Positions 57,468 to 60,418 of a stretch of DNA of 64,000 nucleotides are shown here, piece by piece. A program made the position numbers and the translations under genes. The stretch's first letter is position 1, and each line of letters starts with the position of its first letter. Source of the DNA: Candidatus Rokuibacteriota bacterium (GTDB lineage Bacteria > Methylomirabilota > Methylomirabilia > Rokubacteriales > CSP1-6); NCBI GenBank assembly GCA_016184365.1, contig JACPCW010000075.1, forward strand, positions 1-64,000. The letters run 5' to 3'. The notes below the pieces were generated by a model, which was not told where the DNA came from, ran no database searches, and saw nothing but the letters and a program-made list of their open reading frames with translations.

Positions 57468-58178
57468 ATGCAGACGTACGTCCTCGTCCACGGCGCGTGG
57501 CACGGCGGCTGGTGCTGGATCAAGGTCACGCGCCTGCTCACGGATGCGGCGAACATCGTGTACACGCCCACGCTCACCGGCCTCGGCGAGCGCACGCACC
57601 TGGCGCGTCCCGAGATCGATCTGGACACGCACGTCCAGGACGTGGTCGCCGTGCTGGAGACCGAGGAGCTTCGCAACGTGGTGCTCGTCGGTCACAGCTA
57701 CGCCGGCCAGGTGATCAGCGGCGTCGCCGCGCGCGCGGACAAGCGCATCGCCCGGCTCGTCTATCTCGACGCGTTCGTGCCCGAGGCGGGTCAGTCGCTG
57801 CTGTCGCAGCTGCCGCCGGACCGCGCCGACGCCATGCGCAAGGCCGTCGAGACCGAAGGCGACGGCTGGCGGCTCGCGCCGTTTCCTCCCGAGCGACTCG
57901 GCGTCACGAGCCAGCGCGATACGGAATGGCTCCAGCGTCATCTCGTCCCGCAACCGTTCCGGACGTTCGAGCAGGCGCTGCCCGCCGCCGCGCCGGCGAA
58001 GCTGCCGCGCACGTACATCTACTGCTCGAAGCCGGCGATGGGCGCGTTCGACCCGTTCGCCGAGCGGCTGCGCGAGGACCGCAAGTGGCGGTTCCACGAC
58101 GTGAAGACCGGGCACGACGCGATGGTCACCGCGCCCGGAGAGATCGCGAAGATCCTGATGGCCGAGGCCAGGGCCTGA
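57468..58178 (+). CDS. Alpha/beta hydrolase (methylesterase/hydroxynitrile-lyase-like)
   Basis: A 236-residue protein. YVLVHGAWHGGWCWIKV is near residue 3, the nucleophile elbow VGHSYAG near residue 77 (Ser79), and catalytic histidine in VKTGHDAMVTAPGE near residue 216. The short protein and HGAWHGGWCW start match the plant methylesterase/hydroxynitrile-lyase subgroup found widely in soil bacteria. The physiological substrate is unknown. Located directly after the gamma-glutamyltransferase gene. Confidence 0.88.
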   Translation: MQTYVLVHGAWHGGWCWIKVTRLLTDAANIVYTPTLTGLGERTHLARPEIDLDTHVQDVVAVLETEELRNVVLVGHSYAGQVISGVAARADKRIARLVYLDAFVPEAGQSLLSQLPPDRADAMRKAVETEGDGWRLAPFPPERLGVTSQRDTEWLQRHLVPQPFRTFEQALPAAAPAKLPRTYIYCSKPAMGAFDPFAERLREDRKWRFHDVKTGHDAMVTAPGEIAKILMAEARA

Positions 58179-58179
58179 C

Positions 58180-58249
58180 CGAGGGCGCCCCGGGTTTCCC
58201 GGGGCGCTCCGAGCGAAAGGGGGCTTGGGGGCCATTTCGGGGCCCCCAA
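58180..58249 (-). repeat. Two-hairpin dispersed repeat, copy 11
   Basis: CCGAGGGCGCCCCGGGTTTC stem, CTCCGAGCG, then GGGGGCCATTTCGGGGCCCC. It separates the hydrolase stop from the CMD-like gene start and enters neither frame. Confidence 0.85.
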
Positions 58250-58253
58250 CAAT

Positions 58254-58508
58254 ATGGAAGAGAAAGTCATCGCGAGCTGGAAGTACAGGAAGGGCGCGCT
58301 CGACCAGAAGACCGCGTTCCTGTGTTACCTGACGGCGAACCTGGCGGTCGGGAACACCCACTGAGCGAAGCGCGACCTGGCGGGGGCCAGGGCAGCGGGC
58401 GCGACGGAGGACGAAGTCCGCGAGGCGATCAGCTTCGCGATCCGCGCGAATGCGGCGAAGACGCACGCCGACATCCTGAAGGTCTGGAACGATGGCGGCG
58501 GAAGTTGA
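58254..58508 (+). pseudogene. CMD/AhpD-like gene with in-frame TGA: candidate selenoprotein or nonsense pseudogene
   Basis: From ATG 58254 there are 36 sense codons, TGA at 58362-58364, then 47 more sense codons to TGA 58506. Both sides look like one CMD/AhpD-type helical protein: LDQKTAFLCYLTANLAVGNT before, and ARAAGATEDEVREAISFAI after. Counting back from the conserved AGAT, the TGA falls at the second cysteine of the AhpD CxxC motif; the first cysteine position is Asn and the usual histidine is Asp. Reading-through ends 14 bases inside the next gene, as expected for an operon. A selenocysteine-type hairpin follows the TGA. The alternative is a simple nonsense mutation. Confidence 0.55.
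58371..58397 (+). promoter_or_regulatory. Hairpin after the TGA, SECIS-like in position
   Basis: The stem CCTGGC/GCCAGG (58376-58381 and 58386-58391) with loop GGGG is extended by CGC/GCG. The loop begins 17 bases after the TGA, within the range for bacterial selenocysteine insertion elements. Hairpins are common in DNA this GC-rich. Confidence 0.35.
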
Positions 58509-58806
58509 GCTGACGGCCGCGTTCTCGACCGTCCCGGCGACCGAGGCCGAGGACATGAAGCGCGTGCTCGTCGAGACCGTGCAGCAGATCGCGCAGGACG
58601 ACGGCACGTTCAAGCGGGCGCGGCTCGTGTTCACCGAATCGGACGAGCGCTGCGGCCTGACGGCCGAGCTCGACGGCGTCAAGCGTGAAGGCGTGCCGCT
58701 CCAGATCGATCTCGAGACGCTCGAAGACGCGAAGACCTCCGCGGGCGCCCGCGCCCAGCTCAAGGAGGCGATCCGCCTCTACTTCCGCCGCGTCCAGGGG
58801 CGGTAG
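58492..58806 (+). CDS. Conserved hypothetical protein
   Basis: A 104-residue protein of mixed alpha/beta character: EVELTAAFSTVPATEAEDMK, then FKRARLVFTESDERCGLTAE and LKEAIRLYFRRVQGR. No signal peptide or membrane segment. No family recognised. It overlaps the end of the CMD-like frame by 17 bases, and its TAG overlaps the next GTG by one base, so it lies in an operon with the methyltransferase. Confidence 0.6.
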   Translation: MAAEVELTAAFSTVPATEAEDMKRVLVETVQQIAQDDGTFKRARLVFTESDERCGLTAELDGVKREGVPLQIDLETLEDAKTSAGARAQLKEAIRLYFRRVQGR

Positions 58807-59507
58807 TGGGCGCCGGCGACGGCGTGCTGCTCTACGTCTACCGCGGCGCCACGTTTCGCGTCCCGGACGACGTGCAGCCGCCGAAGGCCGGCTCCCGATT
58901 CTTCGTCTCGCACCTGACCGTCCGTCCCGGCGAGCGCGTGCTCGAGCTCGGCTGCGGTCTCGGCCTCGCCGCCGTCCTCATGGCGAGGGAGGGCGCGCGT
59001 GTCGTGGCCACCGACGTCGTGCCGTCGGCCGTGGCGGCGACCCGGGCGAACGCGATCCTGAACGGCGTCGACGTCGACGTCCGGCTCGGCGACTGCTACG
59101 CGCCGGTGGCCGGGGAGCGGTTCGATCTCGTCTGCACGAACCCGCCGCAGATGCCGACGCCCTCCGGCGCGGCGCGCGACGATGCCGCCGCGGCCGCCGA
59201 CAACGGCGGGCGCGACGGCTGGGCGCTGCTCGATCGCGTGATCGACGGCGCGCCGGCGCATCTCGTGCCCGGCGGTCGGCTGCTGTTCACGATCTTCGCG
59301 TTCCTCGGACGCAAGCGCGCGCTCGCGAAGCTCGAAGCGCGCGGCTTCACGCCCGCCGTCGTCGCGTCGGAGACGCAGAGCTTTCCGCGGATCGGCTACG
59401 AGCGCCTCGATCACCTCCGCCGCCTCGACGCCGAGGGCACGCTCCCGGCATCGGGGACGCCGCGCACGGTCGAGCGGCTCGTGGTCGAGGGACGGCTGAG
59501 CGCCTGA
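58806..59507 (+). CDS. Class I SAM-dependent methyltransferase (HemK/RlmG-like NPPY type)
   Basis: A 233-residue methyltransferase. The SAM-binding loop VLELGCGLGLAAVLMAREGA is near residue 45, and an acidic TDVV strand follows. The catalytic motif FDLVCTNPPQMP (NPPx) near residue 107 marks an amino- or glutamine-methyltransferase, as in PrmC/HemK and RlmG. The target is unknown. The start is GTG 58806, overlapping the upstream TAG by one base; its stop overlaps the YdjC start (TGATG). Confidence 0.83.
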   Translation: MGAGDGVLLYVYRGATFRVPDDVQPPKAGSRFFVSHLTVRPGERVLELGCGLGLAAVLMAREGARVVATDVVPSAVAATRANAILNGVDVDVRLGDCYAPVAGERFDLVCTNPPQMPTPSGAARDDAAAAADNGGRDGWALLDRVIDGAPAHLVPGGRLLFTIFAFLGRKRALAKLEARGFTPAVVASETQSFPRIGYERLDHLRRLDAEGTLPASGTPRTVERLVVEGRLSA

Positions 59508-60250: not shown

Positions 60251-60418
60251 GGGGGCCCCGACATGGCCCCCATACCCCCCAACGCTCGGGGCGTCCCGGC
60301 AAAGCCGTGACGCCCCTCGATAACGGCGGCTGTCGCGGCAAAGCCGTGACGCCCCTCGATAACGGCGGCTGTCGCGGCAAAGCCGTGACGCCCCTCGATA
60401 ACGGCGGCCGTCCCGGCG
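60251..60418 (+). repeat. Two-hairpin dispersed repeat, copy 12, with the second hairpin amplified three times
   Basis: GGGGGCCCCGACATGGCCCC, ACGCTCGG and the stem GGCAAAGCC...CCTCGAT. The AAAGCCGTGACGCCCCTCGA unit then recurs at 60301, 60340 and 60379, an exact 39-base period. It lies just before the ROK gene. Confidence 0.85.

Follow-up and report, generated by a model that had tools for sequence, protein, structure and literature searches.

AhpD-like and CMD selenoproteins carrying a CxxU motif have been described before (PMC1088965, PMC2398784, PMC9312934, PMC13188914). The AhpD-like 1, AhpD-like 2 and CMD-domain selenoproteins from marine metagenomes have the CMD/AhpD fold, with selenocysteine (Sec) at the second active-site position, and are all listed as CxxU (PMC1088965, PMC2398784). 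The GSU3128 family (NCBIfam model NF041047, 'distant AhpD homolog') is likewise a small CMD/AhpD domain of the CxxU type with Sec at the second motif position. In ArsM_AhpD_UU (NF041537) and MduS (NF045649) an AhpD domain forms the C-terminal part of arsenite methyltransferase selenoprotein fusions of ~340 aa. The proton relay of M. tuberculosis AhpD comprises Glu118, Cys130, His132, Cys133 and His137, and a further member of the fold, TTHA0727 of Thermus thermophilus (PDB 2cwq), is described as having no peroxidase activity and an unknown function (PMC3141380). The selenoproteome of Methylomirabilota is of current interest because a metagenome-assembled genome (MAG) from this phylum is reported to hold the record of 63 predicted selenoproteins, the most of any bacterium (Deng et al. 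2026, as cited in PMC13188914).

The DNA analyzed here, a stretch of 64,000 nucleotides referred to as the window, belongs to a Rokubacteria-type MAG of 5.58 Mb and 90% completeness. It contains a frame of 84 codons on the + strand (58254-58505; start ATG at 58254, stop TGA at 58506-58508), whose sole interruption is a TGA at codon 37 (58362-58364), followed by 47 sense codons. The read-through product has 84 residues, MEEKVIASWKYRKGALDQKTAFLCYLTANLAVGNTHUAKRDLAGARAAGATEDEVREAISFAIRANAAKTHADILKVWNDGGGS. We propose, with a probability of about 0.92, that this UGA is decoded as Sec by SelA, SelB, tRNA-Sec and SelD under a hairpin at 58376-58391, yielding a selenoprotein of 84 residues with the CMD/AhpD fold (Table 1). 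From machinery, conservation, selection and hairpin together, Sec insertion as such appears near certain on computational grounds.

Table 1 Features of the candidate selenoprotein locus within the window.
Feature	Position	Strand	Evidence or remark
Candidate selenoprotein gene	58254..58508	+	Translation; CMD domain; orthologues in 40 genomes
In-frame UGA, predicted Sec37, second Cys of AhpD CxxC	58362..58364	+	TGA in every orthologue; Cys in distant relatives
N-T-H-U motif	58353..58364	+	Positional alignment; Asn in place of first (resolving) Cys
Predicted bSECIS stem-loop CCUGGC-GGGG-GCCAGG	58376..58391	+	Fold, synonymous constraint, covariation, rules of PMC13188914
104-aa overlapping downstream gene	58492..58806	+	ORF list; Pfam; neighbourhood comparison
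MTS-type small methyltransferase	58806..59507	+	Pfam PF05175, E 8e-19; neighbourhood comparison
Dispersed-palindrome copy GGGGGCCATTTCGGGGCCCC	58227..58246	+	Directly 5' of start codon

The MAG encodes selA, selB, selD and tRNA-Sec, the complete machinery for a bacterial selenoprotein gene. selB is present as one full-length gene (368 bits, above the cut-off), the selA match scores 591 bits, and a tRNA-Sec with a UCA (tca) anticodon was found by Rfam and ARAGORN alike; these three are neighbours on contig C55. The selD match (349 bits) is located on the window's own contig. The other matches in these searches, all below the cut-offs, probably represent ordinary tRNAs and translation factors. 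In the genomes sampled around the MAG, selB was present throughout (60/60) and above the cut-off in 55. The first-pass annotation had held that a missing selB and tRNA-Sec would speak against a selenoprotein; with all four components found, this objection falls away. The selD gene of the MAG (L095, G000:C2:114596-115540) contains an in-frame TGA as well, and SelD is, given this codon, probably a selenoprotein itself.

Orthologues were searched for in 148 genomes and then in 95 genomes of the class. They are 81-91% identical; within the same family, 40 of the 57 genomes carry one, spread over 22 genera. The gene was not found in two congeners of the window genome, which are 82% and 92% complete, nor in any of the nine sampled genomes of another genus, g9 (0/9). 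Codon 37 is TGA in every orthologue (38 distinct sequences), and neither Trp nor Cys was found at this codon in any orthologue of the 40 genomes. In distant CMD proteins and paralogues, from the same class and elsewhere, the residue in the Sec37 column is usually Cys. The UGA is thus either kept or, in distant relatives only, swapped with Cys, and coding conservation extends to both sides of it. As far as the sequences collected here tell, Sec/Cys exchange is visible with distant relatives only, and a Cys orthologue within the clade, termed NxxU, was not found.

Selection is equally strong on both sides of the codon, with a dN/dS of 0.111 upstream and 0.099 downstream of the TGA. The read-through frame is stop-free for 39 codons past the TGA in all 37 full sequences, and the two other frames contain stops in many of them. 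The read-through product matches the Pfam CMD model PF02627 with an E-value of 4e-9 and 36.8 bits, exceeding the gathering cut-off of 23. Several claims of the first-pass annotation are borne out by these results: a single CMD domain continues across the TGA as one protein family, coding quality is kept for 47 codons up to the next gene, whose ATG at 58492 is overlapped by the 3' end of the selenoprotein gene, and the homologues, named there as the check for Trp or Cys/Sec at this codon, show Trp nowhere.

A nonsense mutation or sequencing error in an ordinary CMD gene would be a natural explanation if the window sequence were viewed singly, and the disturbed 5' end of the window copy fits such a view. 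However, the same TGA in every orthologue of 40 genomes, together with purifying selection past it (dN/dS ~0.1), led us to reject this explanation, whose probability is close to nil. The frame would equally be open if an altered code or suppressor tRNA had UGA read as another amino acid such as Trp or Gly. However, the invariant Trp9 is encoded by TGG and never by TGA in 37 of 37 sequences, TGA terminates both the selenoprotein gene (58506) and the preceding gene (58176-58178), distant relatives have Cys at this position, and tRNA-Sec is present. A changed genetic code was rejected on these grounds and seems hardly conceivable.

Bacterial SECIS elements (bSECIS) are defined by a stem of 4-16 bp, a loop of 3-9 nt, a G in the first two loop positions, a spacing of 16-37 nt between UGA and loop, and an MFE of no more than -7.5 kcal/mol (PMC13188914). 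The window hairpin lies within all of these limits, with a 6-bp stem, a 4-nt loop with G first, 17 nt from UGA to loop and -16.7 kcal/mol. The first-pass annotation had thus placed the hairpin (from 58376, loop 17 nt past the TGA) and its bacterial SECIS geometry correctly. Its caveat that strong hairpins are common at this GC is equally justified, as the hairpin neighbourhood, with an MFE of -16.7 to -21.8 kcal/mol, is only ~2 SD better than shuffles. This makes a single-sequence hairpin weak evidence at this GC, as is confirmed by some Cys-bearing relatives, which form stems with as many as six pairs at other places in the permitted range; conservation is what makes the hairpin strong evidence.

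The stem codons Leu CTG, Ala GCC and Arg AGG show zero synonymous change in 37 sequences and are the only three invariant ones among 43 four- or six-fold sites; elsewhere in the gene, AGG accounts for just 5 of 128 Arg codons. The loop reads AGGU in 28 of the 37 sequences, GGGC in seven, AGGC in one and GGGG in the window copy only. This unmatched loop, the palindrome in front of the window copy and the lack of the gene in both incomplete congeners are points against the proposal. In TGA-bearing paralogues the hairpin recurs at the identical 17-nt position, built from other stem letters (CUUCGC/GCGAAG and CUUUGC/GCAAAG). In a joint alignment of clade and paralogues, none of the six stem pairs is lost: two persist through compensatory change, and 99.1% of cells are paired. 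The covariation score of 0.39, compared with 0.13 for shuffled alignments (0/500 reach 0.39) and at most 0.17 for slid versions, stems from the clade-versus-paralogue comparison only, since the stem is invariant inside the NxxU clade, and with few sequence groups it represents few independent events. Cys-bearing relatives form 0-4 of the six pairs at the place of the hairpin. An Rfam search gave no relevant match near the selenoprotein gene.

A conserved hairpin directly past the codon would also suit a true stop, in which case the gene would encode a conserved 36-aa peptide and the hairpin would have a part in termination or RNA stability or allow re-initiation on a second short frame. This explanation was rejected and is highly improbable, as a single CMD domain extends in frame beyond the codon, where selection is just as strong, the hairpin geometry equals the bSECIS model and recurs in paralogues, and the Sec machinery is present in the genome. 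According to the selenoprotein reading, the hairpin at 58376-58391 would instead direct Sec insertion at UGA 58362 by SelA, SelB, tRNA-Sec and SelD.

Counted from the AGAT motif, and in agreement with the first-pass annotation, the TGA stands where AhpD has the second cysteine of its CxxC, and Asn34 occupies the place of the first. The missing first cysteine, also pointed out there, is a real property of the clade: 36 of 37 orthologous sequences have Asn34 and one has Thr, so that the CxxC, CxxU or UxxC redox pair of AhpD is lacking. His36 and Asp41 are invariant across the 37 sequences. By position, His36 aligns with His132 of M. tuberculosis AhpD, and the pair His132-Cys133 corresponds to His36-Sec37 (AhpD residues from PMC3141380). 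In contrast, Phe22, Asn34 and Asp41 stand at the places of Glu118, Cys130 and His137, which makes the canonical active-site disulfide impossible. Counting Sec as Cys, two of five proton-relay residues are kept by position, and Phe22 is variable in the clade. With Asn at the place of the first Cys, the canonical CxxC peroxidase cycle of AhpD is therefore not to be assumed. The invariant Cys24 might be considered a stand-in resolving cysteine; however, it should face elsewhere because it lies two residues past the AhpD Glu118 position in the same helix.

An AlphaFold2 model built from 20 orthologues reached a pLDDT of 86 and a pTM of 0.71. The best PDB matches of the model were all CMD/AhpD proteins with a probability of ~1.0, none with an E-value below 0.001. 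The closest solved relative by both profile and fold is TTHA0727, which likewise has no first cysteine (Ser70) and keeps the second, with Cys where the window protein has Sec. In comparison to the window protein, TTHA0727 has a longer chain and is a hexamer.

Sec37 would sit at the catalytic (second) Cys position of the AhpD active-site helix with the invariant His36 beside it. Because the partner cysteine is Asn, the selenol of Sec37 probably works alone. The likely mechanism is a reaction of this lone selenol, activated by the neighbouring His36, with an oxidant or disulfide, after which an external thiol would reset it; alternatively, Sec37 could be joined to a partner in a mixed selenosulfide. 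The internal bond seen in AhpD would not arise. A redox role of the protein is likely, and a peroxidase-type activity is conceivable, if somewhat doubtful.

Sec nearly always serves in redox chemistry. This established knowledge, and the retention of His36 beside Sec, argue against a protein that contains Sec and yet is no peroxidase or disulfide enzyme, binding a metal, a small molecule or a partner instead. Such a role would resemble TTHA0727, the closest solved relative, in which the first Cys is missing as well and which is described as having no peroxidase activity (PMC3141380), and it would agree with the conserved place of the gene beside a methyltransferase; we consider it unlikely. 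With the resolving Cys gone and Sec fixed in every orthologue, the question arises what role a lone selenol plays in an AhpD fold and why it is never replaced by Cys.

In the phylogenetic tree, the NxxU proteins form a clade with 100/100 support and a long stem, and the CxxU clade (98/96) and the GSU3128-like proteins are separate from it; the order among these three groups is weakly supported, long branches are present, and GSU3128 is represented by the best model matches from three genomes of another phylum. The window protein matches NF041047, NF041537 and NF045649 with E-values of ~1e-9 to 1e-11, all far below the curated cut-offs. The best short-protein match is the GSU3128 model NF041047 (E 5e-11), with 42.6 bits against a cut-off of 110. 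In contrast to the GSU3128 family, the window protein has Asn for the first Cys and falls into a separate clade; unlike the marine-metagenome set, it is NxxU and comes from Rokubacteria-type genomes. The C-terminal AhpD domains of ArsM_AhpD_UU (E 4e-11) and MduS (E 6e-10) also match it; however, the AhpD domain of the window stands alone, and a separate methyltransferase gene is found two genes downstream.

The first-pass annotation had proposed a new selenoprotein, while remarking that AhpD-like and CMD selenoproteins are known from metagenomes. The selenoprotein reading is supported and the remark is confirmed (PMC1088965, PMC2398784), so the protein is not new in kind: judged by motif and tree, NxxU is a new subgroup of the known CMD/AhpD-like selenoproteins, next to the GSU3128 type. 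The NxxU motif is absent from the text of the review PMC13188914, published in 2026, and the groundwater survey of Deng et al. 2026 may already include the gene. With these genes, uncultured bacteria of soil and groundwater gain a well-supported clade of selenoproteins. Because the curated models stay below their cut-offs, annotation probably cuts NxxU genes short or misses them.

Downstream gene order is largely kept. Across 32 orthologous loci, the 104-aa gene adjoins the selenoprotein gene in about 29 and the MTS methyltransferase follows downstream in about 31; upstream genes are less constant. A Pfam search of the 104-aa protein returned no match. The kept order suggests a functional link of the selenoprotein with the 104-aa protein and the methyltransferase. 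Tentatively, NxxU may even be a separate class across Rokubacteria-type genomes, with a lone Sec and no Cys form, which instead of the AhpD peroxide cycle carries out an undescribed selenol-based reaction together with these two proteins.

Further TGA-bearing CMD genes were observed in the class. The same genome encodes a second CMD selenoprotein with the CxxU motif G-C-T-S-U (L093, G000:C13:18490-18693, - strand) and the hairpin CUUCGC-GGCU-GCGAAG, and genes of this type are widespread in the class. In an AhpD-like gene found in one of 94 genomes (L102, G039:C330:6849-7121), a pair of in-frame TGA codons lies three apart (U-L-P-U), with a hairpin at the same SECIS position; the product is possibly a CMD protein in which Sec takes the place of both active-site cysteines. 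A third TGA-bearing group (L172, L173 and L174), from another family of the class, shows C-(A/Y)-P-U and a hairpin CUUGGC-GU(C/G)-GCCAAG downstream of the TGA.

Most relatives have an AGGAGG-type Shine-Dalgarno sequence where the window copy carries a palindrome. As this palindrome, not AGGAGG, precedes the start codon, expression of the window copy may differ from that of its relatives. A search for plasmids gave no match. A 39-bp tandem repeat of 3.2 copies lies at 60293-60417 of the window, in the gap before a ROK-family gene. Sequences close to GGGGGCCATNTCGGGGCCCC occur 12 times in the window (at 2349, 8739, 13130, 15345, 20294, 21296, 27124, 41827, 48854, 58227, 60252 and 63065). The genome as a whole has 361 copies (173 forward, 188 reverse), compared with 0 for the reversed control. 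One congener has 302 copies, another 34, and genomes of other genera 0-20; the palindrome looks like a REP-type intergenic element expanded in the genus.
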